This document shows positions 1 to 56,392 of a stretch of DNA of 64,000 nt, in pieces (the stretch's first letter is position 1; each line of letters begins with the position of its first letter). The notes beneath the pieces were generated by a model. That model searched no databases, had not been told where the DNA came from, and saw nothing but the letters and a program-made list of their open reading frames with translations. This stretch comes from Streptomyces canus (GTDB taxonomy: Bacteria > Actinomycetota > Actinomycetes > Streptomycetales > Streptomycetaceae). A program made the position numbers and the translations under genes. The stretch is taken from positions 6,944,001 through 7,008,000 of the forward strand of contig NZ_JAUSWW010000001.1 of the NCBI RefSeq assembly GCF_030815415.1, given 5' to 3'.

Positions 1-189
1 CCACAACGAGACGTCCGGCGGCTCGCGGAGGCCCTGGACACCGTGCTGACCGATGACTCGATCGCACACGACATGGGCCTGGCGGCGCGGAGCATGGCGG
101 TCGACAGGTTCGACTTCCTGGTCCAGGGCGCCCGGCTCCGTGGACTGCTGTCCGCTCATGGCCTGCTCGCGGCCGAGACGAGGAAGTGA
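1..189 (+). CDS. Glycosyltransferase family 4/1, C-terminal fragment (runs off window)
   Basis: The reading frame is open from base 1 and ends at TGA 187-189, so only the last 62 codons are visible. The peptide has the usual tail of GT-B glycosyltransferases: an L-A-E-A-L-x-x-V-L-T-D-D stretch, then M-G-L-A-A-R and a V-D-R-F-D-F helix. In such enzymes this C-terminal helix packs back onto the N-terminal domain. The next glycosyltransferase starts 7 bases downstream, so the two are probably cotranscribed in a surface-glycan cluster. The donor and acceptor cannot be inferred from this fragment. Confidence 0.75.
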   Translation, partial: PQRDVRRLAEALDTVLTDDSIAHDMGLAARSMAVDRFDFLVQGARLRGLLSAHGLLAAETRK

Positions 190-196
190 GCTTCTG

Positions 197-997
197 ATGA
201 CACACCGCAGACCACGCGTTCGCCTGGTGGTGCCGACCACGGGTGGGCGCCTGACCTATCTGGAACAGTGCCTGGCCTCGATCGGCCGCCAGGACGAACT
301 GGCCGAGGTGGTGATCGTCGGCCCGGCGGCGCCCTCCCCTGCACTGCGTGAACTCGTACGGAGCCATCCGTGCCGATACGCCGCGGAAAGCGGCCGTGGC
401 CTCAGCAACGCGGTCAACCAGGGCTGGACGGACGCCGACACCGACTACCTCGGCTGGCTGGGAGACGACGACCTTCTCACCGTGGGATCCTTGTCGGCGG
501 CGGTGGGAGAACTCGAACGAACCCCCTCGGCGGCCATGGTGTACGGCAGGGTGGGCGTCATCGACTCCAGCGGGAACGACCTGTACACCATGCGCCCCGG
601 GAGGCTTGCCCCCTGGCTGCTCCCGTACGGCGTGAACTTCGTCTGGCAGCCCGGCTCGCTGTACCGGCGGGCCGCCGTACGACAAGTCGGCATGCTCGAT
701 CCGTCACTGCGCTACACCATGGACTTCGACCTGCATCTACGGCTGCGGGAGTACGGAAGGCTGCGCTACCTCCCGCGCCCGCTGGCCTGCTACCGCTCTC
801 ACCCCGACACTTTGACGGCGACGAATCCCGAGCCGTACGGCGAGCGCCGCCGGGTCATGAACCGCCACCTCGGGCCCGTGGCGGGTGCCCTTCAGGCGTG
901 CTGGTGGCCGGCGGCCAAGTACGCCGGCCGGGCCTTGGGCGCACTGCAGTTCCATATCGGCCGCCATGCCACAGCGCGCGACCAACCCACGTCCTAG
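197..997 (+). CDS. Glycosyltransferase family 2 (GT-A fold)
   Basis: This 266-residue protein starts at ATG 197, chosen because GAGGAAGTGAG lies just upstream and the family's first beta strand (VRLVVPTTGG) begins at residue 6. It shows the GT2 pattern: nucleotide-binding N-terminus, a G-R-G-L-S-N-A-V-N-Q-G segment, then a W-L-G-D-D-D motif near residue 93 supplying the metal-binding aspartates. A conserved W-Q-P-G-S-L-Y-R-R element and an M-D-F-D-L-H-L-R acceptor-region motif follow. It should transfer a sugar from a nucleotide donor in the cytoplasm. Its TAG stop (995-997) lies inside the CTAG duplicated by the adjacent insertion sequence, so the protein end is unchanged by that insertion. 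Confidence 0.85.
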   Translation: MTHRRPRVRLVVPTTGGRLTYLEQCLASIGRQDELAEVVIVGPAAPSPALRELVRSHPCRYAAESGRGLSNAVNQGWTDADTDYLGWLGDDDLLTVGSLSAAVGELERTPSAAMVYGRVGVIDSSGNDLYTMRPGRLAPWLLPYGVNFVWQPGSLYRRAAVRQVGMLDPSLRYTMDFDLHLRLREYGRLRYLPRPLACYRSHPDTLTATNPEPYGERRRVMNRHLGPVAGALQACWWPAAKYAGRALGALQFHIGRHATARDQPTS

Positions 998-1061
998 TAG
1001 GGCTTGGTCATCTTCACTTGTGCGTGCGTGTCTGATGCTGCGTGTGTGTCGTTGGAGTGGT

Positions 1062-2327
1062 GTGACACCTGAGGAGATGGCCTCGGTCCGGGGGGACTTG
1101 GAGGCGTTCGCGGCGGAGTTGTTCGACGGGTTCTTCCGTGCGGATCAGCGGCGGTGGGGGCAGGCGTATGTGCGCGGGCTGCTGCTGGACGGGCAGCGCA
1201 AGTCGGTGGAGCCGATGGCGGCCCGGCTGGGTGAGGACGGCAACCGGCAGGCGCTGGCGCACTTCATCACCTCCAGCCCGTGGGATCCCGCGCACGTGCG
1301 GGCCCGGCTGGCCTGGAGGATGCACGAGGCGATCGGCCCCGAGGCGTTGATCGTCGACGACACCGGCTTCCTCAAGGACGGGGATGCGTCGGCGTGTGTG
1401 TCGCGGCAGTACACCGGCACCGCGGGCAAGGTCACCAACTGCCAGGTGGGCGTCTCGCTGCACCTGGCCAACGACCGTGCCTCGGCCGCGATCGACTGGC
1501 GGCTGTTCCTGCCCGCATCCTGGGATCCCGACGCGCCGGAGTCCGACCCGGACAAGATCGCCCGCCGCGGCCGGTGCGGGATCCCCGACGGGGTGGGGCA
1601 TGTGGAGAAGTGGCAGCTGGCCCTGGACATGATCGACGAGACCCGGTCGTGGGGCATCGACGTCCCCCTGGTCGTCGCGGACGCCGGATACGGCGATGCC
1701 GCCGCCTTCCGGCTGGGCCTGGAGGAACGCAAGCAGCCCTACGCGGTGGGGATTTCTTCCCGCCATACCGCCCAGCCCGCCGACGCCCAACCCGTCCAGC
1801 CCGACTGTGCGGGCACCGGCCGGCCACCCAAAATGCAGTACCCCGAGCCTGCGCAGAGCATGAAAGACCTGGTCATCGCGGCCGGGAGAACGGCCGCGAG
1901 ACCGGTGTCGTGGCGGGAAGGCTCCCGGCCGGGCAAGGGGGTCAGTGGCTTCAAGCGTATGTATTCGCGGTTCGTCGCCCTGCGGATCCGCCCGGCCGGC
2001 CGCGCCATCCGCAAGGCCACCGACGATCCTGAACTGCCCGTGCGGTGGCTGCTGGCGGAATGGCCCGCGACCGAGCCCGAGCCGGTCCAGTTCTGGCTCT
2101 CCAACCTGCCCTCCGGCATGCCACTGGCCACGCTGGTGCGGCTGGCCAAGCTCCGCTGGCGCATCGAGCACGACTACCGCGAGATGAAACAGGCCCTGGG
2201 ACTGGCCCACTTCGAAGGCCGCACCTTCAACGGATGGCACCACCACGTCACCCTCGTCTCCGCCGCCCACGCCTTCTGCACCCTGCAACGACTGGCACCA
2301 GACCCAAAAGACGCCACGCAGGCCTGA
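1062..2327 (+). CDS. IS701-family DDE transposase (ends early by frameshift)
   Basis: This is a cut-and-paste transposase with an RNase-H-like DDE core. Visible family features are the D-G-Q-R-K-S-V-E-P-M-A region, the L-I-V-D-D-T-G-F strand with the first catalytic aspartate, V-V-A-D-A-G-Y-G with the second, and W-R-I-E-x-D-Y-R-E-M-K-Q-A-L-G-L with the glutamate. The GTG at 1062 gives a compact start; ATG 1035 and ATG 1077 are alternatives. The frame stops at TGA 2325-2327. A family-like tail (L-S-L-Y-Q-V-V-R-D-L-Q) continues in the -1 frame to 2428, at the edge of the right inverted repeat. The stop is therefore probably the result of a lost base, or is bypassed by frameshifting. Confidence 0.85.
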   Translation: MTPEEMASVRGDLEAFAAELFDGFFRADQRRWGQAYVRGLLLDGQRKSVEPMAARLGEDGNRQALAHFITSSPWDPAHVRARLAWRMHEAIGPEALIVDDTGFLKDGDASACVSRQYTGTAGKVTNCQVGVSLHLANDRASAAIDWRLFLPASWDPDAPESDPDKIARRGRCGIPDGVGHVEKWQLALDMIDETRSWGIDVPLVVADAGYGDAAAFRLGLEERKQPYAVGISSRHTAQPADAQPVQPDCAGTGRPPKMQYPEPAQSMKDLVIAAGRTAARPVSWREGSRPGKGVSGFKRMYSRFVALRIRPAGRAIRKATDDPELPVRWLLAEWPATEPEPVQFWLSNLPSGMPLATLVRLAKLRWRIEHDYREMKQALGLAHFEGRTFNGWHHHVTLVSAAHAFCTLQRLAPDPKDATQA

Positions 2328-2428
2328 GCCTCTACCAAGTGGTCCGCGACCTGCAGACCCTCCTCGCCACCTGGACCGGCACCTGCCCCACCTGCCACCG
2401 CGACATACCCACACCACTACGAACCTGA
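2303..2428 (+). other. Out-of-frame transposase tail behind a -1 slippery heptamer
   Basis: Bases 2303-2309 read C_CCA_AAA in the transposase frame, matching the X_XXY_YYZ pattern used for -1 ribosomal frameshifting. A slip there enters a frame encoding 40 further residues that include W-T-G-T-C-P-T-C-H-R, and ends at TGA 2426-2428, the first three bases of the right inverted repeat. That compact end suggests this was the original C-terminus. A single-base deletion in the C3/A4 run is equally compatible. I did not find a convincing stimulatory hairpin by eye. Confidence 0.5.
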
Positions 2429-2438
2429 CCAAGCCCTA

Positions 2439-3161
2439 CTAGTCCCGCACCTCGTAGACGAGGAAGTCCGCGAACGAGGTGTCGGGCCTGGTCGAGTCGG
2501 TGCAGGGGTACCGGTTCCCGACCCTCTCGCGGAGCCGCCACCGGGGAAACCGCTCCACCACGTCGCGCGCCACCGGGCGGTGGCGCACATGCGGCGGGAC
2601 ATGCCCACGCGCGGCCAGGGTGTCCGAGTCGCTCGTGTAGAGCACCACGAACCGCCCGGCAGCCCCGAACACCTGCGACAGATGCAGGTCGTAGAGGTCG
2701 TCCTCGACCAAGTGGAAGATGACGTCCAGCGACAGCGCCAGGTCCGCCCGCAGGAAACCGGCGGGGTCCGAGAACAGCCTCGGACTGAACGTCAGGAAGC
2801 TCTTGGTGGAGTCCCCGGCGAACCGGGCGGCGGCGCCCCGAAGCCCTGCCGGGGACACGTCGAGACCGAGGTAGCGGGGGTATTCGGCGAGTTCGAGCTG
2901 GCGGCCGTCCCCGCAGCCGAACTCGACGACCGACGCCACGCCGTTCTCGGCGACGAACCGGTTGAGCACCTCGGCCTTGAACCGGGCGAGCGCATCCTGC
3001 GACCCGGGGCCCGACGTGCCTCCCTTTGCGTAGCGTTGCTCCCAGTAGGTGAGCGACCCCGGGAAGAGCCGTCGCCTGGCCGAACGGTGGACGGCGTCGA
3101 CCGCCGGCCCGATGAGCGGCATGGTGCGCACTGTCTCTCCGGCGGACCTGCTCGGTGTCAC
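2439..3161 (-). CDS. Class I SAM-dependent methyltransferase
   Basis: The 240-residue protein carries a Rossmann SAM-binding signature, V-V-E-F-G-C-G-D-G-R-Q near residue 80, followed by a Y-L-G-L-D-V-S strand that would hold the ribose-binding acidic residue. A D-L-A-L-S-L-D-V-I-F-H-L motif 4 region follows. The N-terminus (P-G-S-L-T-Y-W-E-Q-R-Y-A-K-G-G-T-S-G) resembles methyltransferases of sugar and polysaccharide clusters. The GTG start at 3161 is preceded by AGGAG and overlaps an upstream reading frame's TGA by four bases. The TAG stop is inside the CTAG duplicated by the IS element. The substrate is unknown but is probably a sugar hydroxyl or carboxyl. Confidence 0.8.
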   Translation of the reverse strand: MTPSRSAGETVRTMPLIGPAVDAVHRSARRRLFPGSLTYWEQRYAKGGTSGPGSQDALARFKAEVLNRFVAENGVASVVEFGCGDGRQLELAEYPRYLGLDVSPAGLRGAAARFAGDSTKSFLTFSPRLFSDPAGFLRADLALSLDVIFHLVEDDLYDLHLSQVFGAAGRFVVLYTSDSDTLAARGHVPPHVRHRPVARDVVERFPRWRLRERVGNRYPCTDSTRPDTSFADFLVYEVRD

Positions 3162-3345
3162 GACATGCTCCTGTCTGGGGTGGGGGGACTGTCCGCGAGG
3201 ATCCCGCGGTACAGCTGTTCAGCGAGTTCAGCCTTGGCCGTCCAGGTGCTACGGAGCGCCCGGCGCCGACCCGCGGCCACACCACCACGAACGGTGACAG
3301 CAGGCTGTGGAAGGCCAAAACCTCGAGGAAATCGATGAGTTGTGA
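3158..3345 (-). pseudogene. Decayed tail of a cluster gene between glycosyltransferase and methyltransferase
   Basis: No intact gene fills the gap between the genes ending at 3368 and starting at 3161, yet two frames look coding. Upstream is a hydrophobic stretch including F-L-E-V-L-A-F-H-S-L-L-S-P. After a frame change near 3250 comes S-T-W-T-A-K-A-E-L-A-E-Q-L-Y-R-G-I-L-A-D-S, ending at TGA 3160-3158 in a GTGA overlap with the methyltransferase start. The overlap implies a real upstream gene once ended here and that most of it has been deleted. I do not recognise the family. Confidence 0.4.
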
Positions 3346-52316: not shown

Positions 52317-53294
52317 TCACATCGTGAGCGGGGAATCGGGCGTATCGGATGAACCGGGATGCCGCCTCCCGCGTACCACCAAAACGGAACCGGCCACCAC
52401 CAGGACGAACCCCAGCACAGCCGCACCGATCGGCACCGTCTCGCCGATCGCCTTCAGCTGACCGCTGTCCTGCTCGGCCTTCTTCACCGCGTCCTTCTGC
52501 GTCGCGGTCGTGAAGGCGATCTTCTCGCTGTTCAGCAGCACCACCGCGTCCTTCTTGGCGCCCGGCGCCCGCAGGGTCCGCTTCGGGCCGGTCTGCGCGT
52601 AGATCACGCGGCCGGTGCGCTGGTCGACGACCAGCTCGAAACCGTGGTTGGAGTACCACTCCTCGGCCAGCACCTGCGGGCTGTCCGGCCGGCCGACGAG
52701 GCTGCCCGGCACCATCCGGGTGCCGACCTTCGTCGGGGCGACCGTGCCGGTGAACCGGTAACCCGTGTACCCCTGGACCTTCTTGGTATCCCGGTAGGTC
52801 AGCACGATGGTGTTGCCGAGGGTGTTGTCCCACCACTGGTAGGCGCGTTTCTGCACGTCGAAGGGGAACTTCAGATAGGCCTCGCCCTCGATGTACGGCT
52901 TCTCGCCGCAGCAGTGGACGGGCTTGGTGGTCCTGCGGTCCATGACCCAGCGGTGCGGTACGAAGTCCAGCGCGTCGTGCGGATCCGCCGCCGGCAGGGT
53001 CTTGTCGGTGTCGACCGTGGTCGTCACGTCCCAGACCGCGTCACCGCTGCGCTCGCTGTCCTCGACGTTGCCGCGCACCCGCTGGGTGACGGTGATCGTC
53101 TGGCCGTCCACGGTCTCGACCTTGTCGGTGTCGAAGACGCTGCCGGTGCCTTTGTAGACGGCGGTCTGGTCGATGTCGATCGGGTTCACTGCGGCCCGTG
53201 GGGTCACGTACCACGCCAGCATGGGCGCCAGGACCAGCAAAAACGTGCCGAGTCCCAGCAGAATCAGAGAGAAAGGAGAGGCTGTACGGCGCAT
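52317..53294 (-). CDS. DUF3068 membrane protein
   Basis: The 325-residue protein has an N-terminal helix (S-L-I-L-L-G-L-G-T-F-L-L-V-L-A-P-M-L-A-W-Y-V) and a C-terminal one (I-G-A-A-V-L-G-F-V-L-V-V-A-G-S-V-L-V-V-R-G). They enclose an extracytoplasmic domain with R-G-N-V-E-D-S-E, the C-C-G-E pair and L-V-V-D-Q-R-T-G-R-V. This is the DUF3068 (PorA-like) pattern found across actinobacteria, often next to envelope polysaccharide genes. ATG 53294 was chosen because the helix follows directly. The function is unknown; its position before the glycan operon suggests an envelope role. Confidence 0.85.
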   Translation of the reverse strand: MRRTASPFSLILLGLGTFLLVLAPMLAWYVTPRAAVNPIDIDQTAVYKGTGSVFDTDKVETVDGQTITVTQRVRGNVEDSERSGDAVWDVTTTVDTDKTLPAADPHDALDFVPHRWVMDRRTTKPVHCCGEKPYIEGEAYLKFPFDVQKRAYQWWDNTLGNTIVLTYRDTKKVQGYTGYRFTGTVAPTKVGTRMVPGSLVGRPDSPQVLAEEWYSNHGFELVVDQRTGRVIYAQTGPKRTLRAPGAKKDAVVLLNSEKIAFTTATQKDAVKKAEQDSGQLKAIGETVPIGAAVLGFVLVVAGSVLVVRGRRHPGSSDTPDSPLTM

Positions 53295-53340
53295 CCGGGC
53301 ACTCCTGGGGCGTGAGGGTACGGAGTTCGGGCCGCTCTGG

Positions 53341-53546
53341 GACCTGTCGTCACACTCCCGTCGTTCGCCCGTAGGGCGGGCCCCGCGGCGTCTGGTGCGT
53401 GCAGCTGCAAGGCGGAGGAGGGAGTCGACGCGATGGGGGTCCCCCCGCTCGAGCGAAGCCGAGAGTGGGGGAGTCGGCGACCGACGACAACGCCGCAGGT
53501 GCGCGTGCCAGACGCCGCGGGGCAGGCGGGAGTGTGACGACAGGGC
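53341..53546. mobile_element. About 205-bp inverted-repeat (MITE-like) element containing a nested repeat
   Basis: CCTGTCGTCACACTCCCG (53343-53360) is the exact complement of 53527-53544. Further in, CCCCGCGGCGTCTGG (53381-53395) is complementary to 53508-53522, so the arms are long and interrupted. The centre holds copy 2 of the 41-bp hairpin repeat. The outer ends resemble the short element at 55061-55120. No transposase and no clear target duplication were seen. It separates the DUF3068 gene from the DUF2613 gene and fills most of that 383-bp gap. Confidence 0.7.
53434..53474. repeat. 41-bp hairpin repeat, copy 2 (nested in the inverted-repeat element)
   Basis: Identical over 41 bases to 52056-52096 and lying inside the larger inverted-repeat element. 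The nested position shows that one repeat family inserted into another, or that both moved together. Confidence 0.85.
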
Positions 53547-53573
53547 CCTTGGGCCGAGGACCGTAGGCGCCCC

Positions 53574-53602
53574 TTGACGGAGTGTCAATGTCTTGCTGAC
53601 AC
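53574..53602 (+). promoter_or_regulatory. Candidate promoter/operator upstream of the DUF2613 gene
   Basis: TTGACG at 53574-53579 is a good -35 box, with TGACAC 17 bases further as a weak -10. The same bases form two overlapping inverted repeats, TTGAC-N5-GTCAA (53574-53588) and GTGTCA-N9-TGACAC (53582-53602), so a repressor site overlapping the promoter is plausible. Confidence 0.45.
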
Positions 53603-53677
53603 TGGGGCGGACAGACAGGGTGGAACGCCGGGGTGGGGACAACCGCCGGAAAGAGCCACTGAAAGGCTGACCCTGCG

Positions 53678-53830
53678 ATGTCCAGACTGCTCGCCGCCGC
53701 ACTCACCGTCGTGGCAGCCGCCGCGCTCGCCGTGGGGGCCGCGTTCGGCATTGTCGCGCTGCTCGAAGCGACGCCCGACCAGCCGAACACGCCCTTGATC
53801 ACGTACGAGCAAGCAGGTCAGGGGAGTTGA
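53678..53830 (+). CDS. DUF2613-type small membrane protein (50 aa)
   Basis: The 50-residue product starts at ATG 53678 and consists of one membrane helix (L-L-A-A-A-L-T-V-V-A-A-A-A-L-A-V-G-A-A-F-G-I-V-A-L-L) followed by a short tail with E-A-T-P-D-Q-P-N-T-P-L. The tail is a recognisable DUF2613 feature conserved in actinobacteria. It ends 3 bases before the PucR-type regulator, so both share a transcript. The function is unknown. Confidence 0.8.
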   Translation: MSRLLAAALTVVAAAALAVGAAFGIVALLEATPDQPNTPLITYEQAGQGS

Positions 53831-53833
53831 GCC

Positions 53834-55060
53834 GTGACGGCGGTGACTTCACGGTCGGCCTGGCTCGACGTACCCCGGCTCCAGGTGCGCCGCTTCGCGG
53901 AGATCGCGATGGCGGAGGCACCGGCGCTCGCCGAGGAGATCCTGCGCGAGATCCGCCGCGAGTACCCCCATCTGCCCGTCGTCCTCGACGAGTCGGGCGA
54001 GCCGATGGCCCTCGTCGGTATCCGCCGCGCCATCGAGGTCTTCGTCCAGCACCTGGAGACCGCGGAGGGCCGCCCGAGGGTCCCCCCGGGCGTCTTCCAG
54101 GAGTTCGGCCGGGGCGAGGGGCTGAACGGGCGCAGCCTGGACTCCCTCCAGGCCATCTACCGCATGGGCGTACGCCTGGCCTGGCGCCGTTTCGCCGAGA
54201 TCGGCCAGCGCGTCGAGATCCCGCCGCCGGCGATGTACGAACTCGTCGACGCGGGCTACGAGTACCTCGACGGCCTCGTCGACCAGTCGGTCCGCGGCTA
54301 CGCCGAGGCGGCGGCCCGCCAGGCGGGCGAACGGCTCCGGCTCCAACGCCGCCTGATGGAACTCCTGTTGGTCGAACGCCACCGGCACGGCGACCCGGCC
54401 GAGGCCCTCACGGAACGCGCCGCCCGCATCGGCTGGCCGCTCCCCGAGAGAGTCGCCGTCGGCGTCCTGCTGCGCCCGGCACGAGAGGCGGTACCGCCCG
54501 CGGTCGGCCAGGGAGTGCTCCTGGACATGGAGTACGAACTGCCCCGCATGGTCGTCCCCGAACCGGACGCGGCGGGCCGCCCCGAACTCCTCCACCGCGC
54601 CCTGACCGGCTGGTCCGGCGCGATAGGACCCCCCGTCCCGCTGGCCGACGCGGCGAAGTCGCTGCGCTGGGCCGAGGCCGCCGTACGCCTGATGGAACGC
54701 CGTCTGCTGCCCTCGGGCGAGGTCCTGCACTGCACGGAGCACACGGAGGCGCTGGTGCTCCTCCAGCCGGAGGAACTGATCGACGACCTCGCGCTGCGCT
54801 GCCTGGCCCCCCTGGTCCACTGCGGCCCCACCCATGGCCGCCGGCTCGCCGAGACGTTACTGGCCTGGCTGGAGACCCGTGGCGGCGCTCCGGAGGTGGC
54901 CGCCCGGCTGGGCGTCCACCCCCAGACGGTCCGCTACCGCCTGCGCCAGATCCGTGAGCTCTGGGGCGCGGAGATCGACGACCCGGACCGGCGCTTCGAG
55001 CTGGAACTGGTGCTCAGGGCGCAGCGATTGAGGGGGGTGCTGGGGGAGTCGCCCGGCTAG
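53834..55060 (+). CDS. PucR/CdaR-family transcriptional regulator
   Basis: The 408-residue protein has a RsbRD/PucR-like N-terminal domain (F-G-R-G-E-G-L-N-G-R-S-L-D-S-L-Q-A-I-Y-R-M-G near 100) and a GGDEF-like middle region. A C-terminal PucR helix-turn-helix follows: L-A-E-T-L-L-A-W-L-E-T-R-G-G-A-P-E-V-A-A-R-L-G-V-H-P-Q-T-V-R-Y-R-L-R-Q-I. GTG 53834 follows the DUF2613 stop. Its TAG stop (55058-55060) is part of a CTAG duplicated by a short MITE-like element. Confidence 0.9.
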   Translation: MTAVTSRSAWLDVPRLQVRRFAEIAMAEAPALAEEILREIRREYPHLPVVLDESGEPMALVGIRRAIEVFVQHLETAEGRPRVPPGVFQEFGRGEGLNGRSLDSLQAIYRMGVRLAWRRFAEIGQRVEIPPPAMYELVDAGYEYLDGLVDQSVRGYAEAAARQAGERLRLQRRLMELLLVERHRHGDPAEALTERAARIGWPLPERVAVGVLLRPAREAVPPAVGQGVLLDMEYELPRMVVPEPDAAGRPELLHRALTGWSGAIGPPVPLADAAKSLRWAEAAVRLMERRLLPSGEVLHCTEHTEALVLLQPEELIDDLALRCLAPLVHCGPTHGRRLAETLLAWLETRGGAPEVAARLGVHPQTVRYRLRQIRELWGAEIDDPDRRFELELVLRAQRLRGVLGESPG

Positions 55061-55120
55061 GCCCTGTCGTCAAATTCCCGTCGTCCGCCCGAAGGGGGGC
55101 AGGCGGGAATTTGACGACCC
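55061..55120. mobile_element. 60-bp MITE-like hairpin flanked by CTAG duplications
   Basis: GTCGTCAAATTCCCG (55066-55080) pairs perfectly with 55104-55118, with a second small GC stem inside. The hairpin is bounded by CTAG at 55057-55060 and 55121-55124. The left CTAG carries the PucR gene's TAG stop, and the right CTAG carries the TAG stop of the leftward TerD gene. The ends resemble the 205-bp element at 53341. It may now serve as a terminator for both genes. Confidence 0.75.
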
Positions 55121-56392
55121 CTAGGAGTCCGACCGTCGCTTGAACTCCACCGGGCCCGCGTTCATCTCGATCGTGCCGTCCGGGTGCAGCACCGGCCGGC
55201 GTTCGTTCATGCGGCCGCTGTAGGACTCGATGTGCTGGATCGCCGCGCCGTCGGCGGTGGTGAAGTCGACCAGGGCGATGACCACCCAGTAGCGGGTCTT
55301 GGTGTTCTCGTACAGCGGCACGGTGATGTTGGAGCCGCGCCCGTCGTCGACCACGACCTGCGCACCGAAGCTCTTGAAGGAACCGAACCCGTTGCTGACG
55401 GCCGAGTACGCGCACAGCAGGACGTACCCCTGCTCCTCGGGCCGCACGATACGGATGGTCTCCCGGCCGGGGACACGGGCGTCCCCGTCGAGCTGGATGT
55501 AAGGCGCCTGCTGCAACGAGCCGAGGTTCTTGTAGTAGACGACGTCGCCGCCCTCACCCTTTTTCTCCCCGCGCCCGGTCTTGATGATCGTGCCCGGCGC
55601 CTGTGACCCGCGCTGCGCCTGAGCGGCGGGCACGAACAGGGCGTACAGGTCCAGGTCGGCGCCCTGGCGTCGGCGCTTGTCGCTGCCGCCGTCCCACTCC
55701 AGGGCCACGGTGACGACCAGCTGGCGGTCCGACTTGTCCAGACTGATCGAAACCTGGCCGCCCTTGTCCAGGCTGACCTTGCCGAGCGGGGGTTTGACGA
55801 GACTGGTCGGAGTCGGAACCTGTGCGGGAGCGGGAGCGGATGCCGGTGACTGTGCGGGAGGCGTCTCGGCCTCCGGCCGGGACACATCGATTCCGAAGTC
55901 CGTGGCCAGCCCCGCCAGCCCCTCGGCGTACCCCTGCCCGATGGCCCGCAGCTTCCATCCGTCGCCCCGCCGGTACAGCTCCACGAGCAGCACCGCGCGC
56001 TCGCCGTCGGTCAGCGCGGGCGCGCGGAAGACGACGGGCTCCCCTTCGGCCTGATGCGCCCGGACGGTGACCTCCTCGACCTCACGGAAGGTACGGGCGG
56101 TGTTGTCGGGATCACAGCTGCCGACCAGCACGACCCGGTCCACGTCCGCGGGCAGCCCGGCCGGATCCACGACGACCCGCTCGGGCCCCGAACCATCGGC
56201 ACCGACATGCCGCACGGCCCCGTCCGCACCCGAGGGCTGGTTGTAGAACACCAGATCCCCATCGGACCGCACCCGCCCGTCCGCCCCCACCAGCAGCGCA
56301 CTCAGATCCACCGGATCACCCACGGTGTGCAGCTCGGCGGTCAGCGGCCCGGAGCCCACCACGGTGTTCCCGCCCTTGAGAAGCTCAGGCAC
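55121..56392 (-). CDS. TerD-family protein, two TerD-like domains
   Basis: The 423-residue protein begins at 56392 (GTG as Met) with a TerD-like domain (L-S-A-L-L-V-G-A-D-G-R-V-R-S-D-G-D-L-V-F-Y-N-Q, then W-K-L-R-A-I-G-Q-G-Y-A-E-G-L, residues 1-170). A Pro/Ala linker leads to a second lobe (W-D-G-G-S-D-K-R-R-R-Q-G-A-D-L-D-L-Y-A-L-F-V, V-P-L-Y-E-N-T-K-T-R-Y-W). TerD domains bind calcium through acidic loops and belong to tellurium-resistance and stress systems; D-S/D-G-D-L acidic patches are visible. The TAG stop coincides with the right CTAG of the adjacent element. Confidence 0.88.
   Translation of the reverse strand: MPELLKGGNTVVGSGPLTAELHTVGDPVDLSALLVGADGRVRSDGDLVFYNQPSGADGAVRHVGADGSGPERVVVDPAGLPADVDRVVLVGSCDPDNTARTFREVEEVTVRAHQAEGEPVVFRAPALTDGERAVLLVELYRRGDGWKLRAIGQGYAEGLAGLATDFGIDVSRPEAETPPAQSPASAPAPAQVPTPTSLVKPPLGKVSLDKGGQVSISLDKSDRQLVVTVALEWDGGSDKRRRQGADLDLYALFVPAAQAQRGSQAPGTIIKTGRGEKKGEGGDVVYYKNLGSLQQAPYIQLDGDARVPGRETIRIVRPEEQGYVLLCAYSAVSNGFGSFKSFGAQVVVDDGRGSNITVPLYENTKTRYWVVIALVDFTTADGAAIQHIESYSGRMNERRPVLHPDGTIEMNAGPVEFKRRSDS

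Follow-up and report, generated by a model that had tools for sequence, protein, structure and literature searches.

Among the closest described systems to the element presented here are bacterial MITEs with structured transcripts, such as QMITE2 of Coxiella and RUP, BOX, and SPRITE of pneumococcus. As outlined in the accessible part of a review of these elements, MITEs are typically AT-rich, and SPRITE is terminator-like (PMC10969869). The family described in this work shares with them a small size, a non-coding sequence, terminal inverted repeats, a target duplication, a stable fold, and the insertion of elements into one another. In contrast, it has several end types per core, shows an asymmetry between G-U and A-C pairs, occurs in a GC-rich host, and uses CTAG as its target. 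This comparison refers to the same part of the review, in which the words Streptomyces and actinobacteri are absent (PMC10969869).

Among insertion sequences, the IS427-group elements of Paracoccus contain two overlapping ORFs and generate duplications of 2 bp, in one case 4 bp, according to the part of the report available to us (PMC3281130). REP/RAYT elements, whose partner is a Y1 (RAYT) transposase, form a further group for comparison; the 4-bp CTAG duplication of the hairpin family speaks against such an affiliation. In the open literature on Streptomyces MITEs, CTAG targets, IS5 MITEs, terminators, and structured RNA, no description of the family was found in the titles and abstract beginnings of the matches listed, with subscription journals and ISfinder outside the scope of that search.

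The window, which is the whole 64,000-nucleotide stretch of DNA analyzed here, belongs to a Streptomyces genome of 10.8 Mb in three contigs. We consider it very probable that the 60-bp hairpin lying between two convergent genes of the window is an internal-deletion form of a CTAG-inserting MITE family of Streptomyces-type genomes, presumably moved by an IS5-type (DUF4096) transposase. The features discussed below are as follows:

994..2442, + strand: element with a PF13546 transposase, inverted ends TAGGGCTTGGTCA, CTAG on both sides, and convergent stops; a different family with the same target
53341..53546, + strand: second family copy, 206 bp, flanked by CTGG and CCTT, without CTAG; same orientation as the hairpin, upstream of the PucR-type gene
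53834..55060, + strand: PucR-type regulator, 408 aa, left neighbor (PF13556; Pfam HTH_30 'PucR C-terminal', 6.9e-20)
55057..55060, no strand: left CTAG copy, containing the TAG stop of the PucR-type gene; probable duplication, judged from the sister copies
55061..55120, + strand: 60-bp hairpin, very probably a MITE deletion form, with left arm GCCCTGTCGTCAAATTCCC, a 25-base core remnant, and the right arm
55121..55124, no strand: right CTAG copy, containing the TAG stop of the TerD-domain gene
55121..56392, - strand: TerD-domain protein, 423 aa, right neighbor (PF02342; Pfam TerD, 8.9e-37)

The first-pass annotation had described a 60-bp inverted repeat between two CTAGs, each containing the stop codon of one of two convergent genes, and coordinates, ORFs, Pfam matches, and fold all agree with this description. 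The PucR-type ORF (53834-55060, +) ends in a TAG at 55058-55060, and the TerD-domain ORF (55121-56392, -) ends in a TAG read from 55123 to 55121. With up to 10 flanking bases per side, the hairpin folds at -46.1 kcal/mol (z -4.57), a value that none of 200 shuffled sequences equaled. Like a MITE, it is short, has terminal inverted repeats, and is devoid of a transposase gene. Its arms are not fully symmetrical: the right end is GACGACCCCTAG as against GACGACAGGGCCTAG in the sister copies, and it is 3 nt shorter. When the arm TGTCGTCAAATTCCCG was searched with up to 3 mismatches, the window gave five matches against 0.32 expected, a number reached by none of 100 shuffles. Two of them are the hairpin arms and two belong to the copy at 53341-53546, while the fifth, at 55787 within the TerD gene (3 mismatches), may be due to chance. 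The PucR-type gene thus has a family copy of the same orientation on either side (53341-53546 and 55061-55120), and the first of these copies is without a counterpart at the matching place in the related genomes G140, G141, and G189.

The same architecture with another inserted sequence had been claimed for positions 994-2442, and this proved correct. CTAGs at 994 and 2439 contain the stops of ORFs 53-997 (+) and 2439-3161 (-), and the transposase between them matches PF13546 at 1.8e-98. We take PF13546 (DDE_5) to be an IS701-type domain. The two elements are alike in their CTAG target at convergent stops and unlike in their ends and coding content, the larger one encoding the PF13546 transposase.

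Comparison with other copies agrees with the term MITE-like and shows that the hairpin is not a one-off; it is a shortened member of a family whose end pattern was detected in 22 of the 101 genomes searched within the genus. In the window's genome, five further CTAG-flanked relatives were found, four of which measure 206 bp (214 including the CTAGs on both sides), and the fifth has 116 bp and a worn right end, so that copies are dispersed within one genome, as in MITE families. Long members mostly measure 171-206 bp and consist of two arms of about 19 bp with a conserved core between them. Compared with its sisters, the 60-bp hairpin corresponds to a 206-bp copy minus its middle, with the gap lying between G-runs; both arms are retained, and its 25-base core remnant consists of 17 bases from the start and 8 from the end of the long core. 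Short forms (56-87 bp including both CTAGs) recur in other Streptomyces-type genomes, named Streptomyces among them, and make up 7 of 42 two-ended CTAG copies. With the core as query, 23 of 61 genomes gave a match, and high copy numbers were seen in G017 (30 matches) and G041 (11). The family is a widespread, mostly low-copy element.

Family members were also encountered on plasmids. The 2.35-Mb Streptomyces plasmid NZ_CP109481.1 has nine places resembling a long copy, the best at 95% identity, and 27 plasmid records match in total, 9 of which cover at least 80% of the query. A search of phage records gave no match to the family. In one genome (G033 L201, 1507-2306), family ends about 800 bp apart enclose another coding frame, which may represent a passenger gene or two worn copies. 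In another core copy (G000:C1:3508541, L020), the two arms look as if a hairpin of the host, present once in the relatives L302 and L303, had been duplicated in inverted form.

That the hairpin is an insertion with a CTAG duplication, as the first-pass annotation held, was borne out on two sister copies and extends to the window copy by inference. At the junction of a semialdehyde dehydrogenase gene and a DUF1203 gene (Pfam names), this genome has CTAG-element-CTAG, while G140 and G141, 94% identical there, have a single CTAG that forms both overlapping stops. At a junction of two AMP-binding-enzyme genes (Pfam), the element is present here, and G140 and G141 have one CTAG beside 3 extra bases. 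Since these two empty sites keep a single CTAG, the CTAG represents a 4-bp target duplication, confirmed by an empty site for two sister copies. At two of the four 206-bp sites (5409314 and 4694549), the relatives are without the element and also without CTAG. For the window copy and the copy at 1833947, no continuous ortholog occurred among the matches listed for 20 genomes. The window copy would have arisen by the same insertion at CTAG, with the internal deletion taking place before or after it.

Orthologous PucR-TerD junctions without the hairpin, proposed earlier as a check, were sought through both neighbors. The PucR search matched 36 of 101 genomes at the cut-off, our own included, and gave 30 loci, 29 of them non-self; the TerD search matched 9 of 392 genomes, again including our own, which leaves 8 non-self. 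In none of these 29 PucR and 8 TerD loci are the two genes adjacent, and the check therefore yielded no junction, either empty or filled. The case named as a refutation, the same hairpin at orthologous loci of distant species, was likewise not seen, but the junction itself is also absent from the relatives read.

As to neighboring genes, this genome has six CTAG-flanked copies; in five of them, among them the window copy, open frames of at least 168 codons reach both flanking TAGs, and Pfam identifies genes on both sides in those five. The sixth (5409314) has a long frame on one side only, without a Pfam hit. Stops were then counted over 40 of 84 copies, namely those flanked by CTAG at each end, with arms no shorter than 17 bases, no more than 5 arm mismatches, and 200 bp of flank; 2 copies were dropped because of short flanks, and the 3-nt shortening of its right arm keeps the window copy out of the count. 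The sample is weighted toward arm type A because the copies were gathered, among the matches listed, by a type A arm query, and strain BK340 contributes several of them. A frame was considered coding if it was open for at least 60 codons and had GC-rich third positions. At least one such frame ends exactly in a flanking TAG in 28 of the 40 copies and two do so in 6, while 7 lack a coding stop in the 60 bases on each side. Among control CTAGs, the numbers were 15 single and 2 double stops in 51 from the named-contig loci (p 1.4e-4 and 0.13), 19 and 2 in 75 with the PucR and TerD loci added (p 7e-6 and 0.02), and 35 and 11 in 101 with many orthologous asd sites added (p 1.7e-4 and 0.57). Given 28 of 40 against all three control sets, single coding stops are enriched at the copies relative to other CTAGs.

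Double stops are not clearly above background, and this modifies the proposal that overlapping convergent CTAG stops act as safe harbors: the enrichment of single stops agrees with it, but the counts for double stops (6/40 versus 2/51, 2/75, and 11/101) and the scarcity of the target temper it. CTAG is depleted about 7- to 11-fold, with 141 occurrences against 1003 expected in 390,590 bases and 15 against 172 in the window, so that much of the 'safe harbor' follows from where CTAG survives. Codon usage and the persistence of insertions that do no harm can account for the pattern, so that convergent genes need not be actively targeted. With a target that is rare and whose TAG frequently serves as a stop codon, insertions would often spare one or both neighboring frames, since the duplicated CTAG supplies the second stop again. 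Two places in other genomes indicate that the CTAG produced or left behind by one insertion can probably serve as the target of another. In G090 (L352/L203), an IS701-type element and the left half of a family copy have one CTAG in common, and in G066 (L342), adjoining copies at 2908-3080 and 3105-3277 carry different arm types and lie beside an IS701-type element with CTAG ends.

The search for a mobilizing enzyme led to IS5-type elements (PF13340, DUF4096) of the same genus, which have CTAG on both sides and ends such as GCCGTGTCTTCAAATGATC and GGGGTGTCTTCAAATGATC. We presume that the DUF4096 elements found here form an IS427-like subgroup. They resemble the hairpin family in the CTAG at both ends and in ends such as CTAGGCCGTGTCTTCAAAT, CTAGGGCGTGTGTCGAAAG, and CTAGGGCGTGTCCGCAAAG, the last seen at one IS end only. 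They differ from it in that the resolved copies measure about 0.9-1.5 kb and carry a transposase, and none has exactly the window's arm, the comparison extending over 16 bases only. The window arm differs from the best IS5-type end at 2 of 16 bases, and 2 of 730 control CTAG 16-mers are as close. Four A-type arms tested share 13-15 of 16 bases with IS5-type ends (the window arm 14), and none is identical. For three of twelve arms tested, 1-2 of 730 controls come as close as the best IS, and such close control 16-mers are perhaps worn element ends. For the arm of L464, no IS match was found (9 of 16 bases differ, and 31 of 730 controls are as close).

These ends were obtained from an end scan of 96 PF13340 loci (30 + 20 + 26 + 20, some places twice) and 30 PF13546 loci, which yielded ten loci with paired CTAG or TTAG ends, two more by another pattern, and L477 with one end only. 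Three of the ten are without an equal duplication because TTAG stands at one end, and most scanned loci gave no ends by the narrow patterns applied. A transposase element with exactly the window's ends was not found; of the 20 DUF4096 matches in this genome, 11 were inspected, and the one that had CTAG ends by the end patterns used is of another type. Nor did arm matches 400-6000 bp apart (7 pairs) include a convincing IS. Thus, the full-length transposon with the hairpin's ends, which the first-pass annotation had suggested looking for, did not turn up in exact form, the nearest IS ends being those that differ at 2 of 16 bases. From the similarity of ends, we infer mobilization in trans, in which an IS5-type (DUF4096) transposase would act on the arm ends and insert the element at CTAG with duplication.

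A transposase like that of 994-2442 would be another conceivable mover, as it too uses CTAG. This genome has 17 PF13546 matches, and ends were resolved at 10 of the 30 PF13546 loci, all ten with CTAG, although the scan admitted only YTAR duplications. Against the window arm, five IS701-type ends show 11-13 mismatches in 16 bases (7 in 14 at best, if shifts of up to 2 are allowed), while IS5-type ends show 2, which makes mobilization by an IS701-type enzyme very improbable; the IS701-type element was accordingly rejected as partner or parent. We regard it as similarly improbable, if not slightly more so, that the hairpin never inserted but has long served the convergent genes as a bidirectional terminator, its CTAG flanks being incidental. 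Such a reading would suit a very stable hairpin between convergent genes, the more so as Streptomyces terminators are described, in the part of the source at hand, as long, stable, and U-poor, with 3-4 U in the first ten bases (PMC12207403). Yet near-identical arms occur at five other CTAG sites of this genome and in other species, and two sister loci have empty sites. A canonical intrinsic terminator was not found at the hairpin: no T-run follows the stem, and the first 10 bases after it contain 1 T on either strand, fewer than the reported 3-4. An insertion may nevertheless acquire a role in termination, as the fold of the hairpin would allow; at the semialdehyde dehydrogenase junction, it placed a hairpin between genes that have a common stop in two relatives. 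The preferred reading remains that of an inserted MITE in its deletion form.

Beyond the origin of the hairpin, the core of the long copies shows features of an RNA. The fold was studied on 40 copies of 168-178 bp, 35 of them distinct (alignment A1). Across the 35 copies, a 66-pair fold has 97.5% of its cells paired, with 198 two-sided cells against 47.4 in shuffles, and pairing drops to 37-50% in slid structures on the same alignment. Arm columns 3-17 show 68 two-sided against 2 one-sided standard changes, along with 18 unpaired cells, a pattern expected of palindromes that have been exchanged or corrected. A second fold was made without G-U pairs, so that G-U was not favored, and gave an identical set of 48 pairs from both strands. 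In this strand-symmetric structure, the core (33 pairs) has 25 G-U cells in 11 columns and 1 A-C cell in 1 column, and the arms (15 pairs) have 2 G-U and 4 A-C cells; the cells are non-independent, and strand-biased mutation could contribute, though it is not visible in the arms. When G-U is allowed, seven core pairs are mainly G-U. Since G-U is tolerated and A-C hardly so, with no such asymmetry in the arms, the core appears to behave like an RNA made from the strand beginning GTCGTCCGCCCG, and the arms like DNA.

It is possible, if rather doubtful, that the conserved core is a functional structured RNA under selection (a regulator, or a processing or termination signal) and that the element is more than a selfish MITE. 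The persistence of the pairing and the contrast between core and arms in their G-U and A-C counts argue for this possibility. Against it stand the Rfam searches, which gave no match in window positions 53000-56000 up to E 1 and nothing reaching the gathering score in 8 loci that contain core-bearing copies. Orientation relative to neighboring coding stops is unbiased (17 of 40 in either direction), and most of the core is lost from the window copy. Part of the asymmetry could also come from C-to-T change biased to one strand or from common descent.

The core and the arms also differ in their histories. Copies from core-rich genomes, collected with the core query, carry other arms than the window type, and one core is common to copies of at least four arm types: A (TGTCGTCAAAT), B (TGTCCGCAAAG), C (TGTTTCGAAAG or TGTTGCGAAAG), and E (GTCTGGCAAAT or GTCCGACAAAT), besides rarer ones. 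IS5-type ends differing at no more than 1-3 of 16 bases exist for types A, B, C, and E, where the match for B is one end of one locus (L477) and the best for E are L356 and L357, with imperfect or unequal ends. In the L115 copy, the left arm is of type A and the right arm of type B. Core identity averages 0.813 among A, 0.835 for A versus B, and 0.736 for A versus C, with up to 0.933 in single A-C pairs, while the corresponding arm identities are 0.903, 0.654, and 0.556. On a core-only tree, arm type takes 8 changes against a minimum of 4, and well-supported branches force at least 5 changes for A and at least 3 for C. Weighing against this, the arm label retains some clustering on the tree (5 of 200 shuffles needed as few changes), and only 7 of 29 inner branches have good support. 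Instead of being exchanged outright, the arms may have diverged gradually, with one arm repeatedly corrected by the other.

We therefore put forward, as a tentative idea to which we give clearly less than even chances, that the long element is a hitch-hiking structured RNA. Its core of about 130 bases would be constrained on one strand, its ends would be repeatedly swapped, as a rule both arms together, to suit different IS5-type transposases, and it would settle harmlessly at CTAG stops; the hairpin would be a copy without the RNA that has kept its ends. If this is true, the ends are exchanged and the cargo stays, which is the reverse of an ordinary MITE.

The occurrence of several end types with one conserved core makes transposase switching by non-autonomous elements directly testable. 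The core is a candidate for a new RNA family with many natural variants, for which nearly core-less copies such as the window copy provide natural controls. The CTAG rule, by which the target is depleted and often located at stops, would account for the entry of mobile DNA into dense GC-rich genomes without damage to genes.
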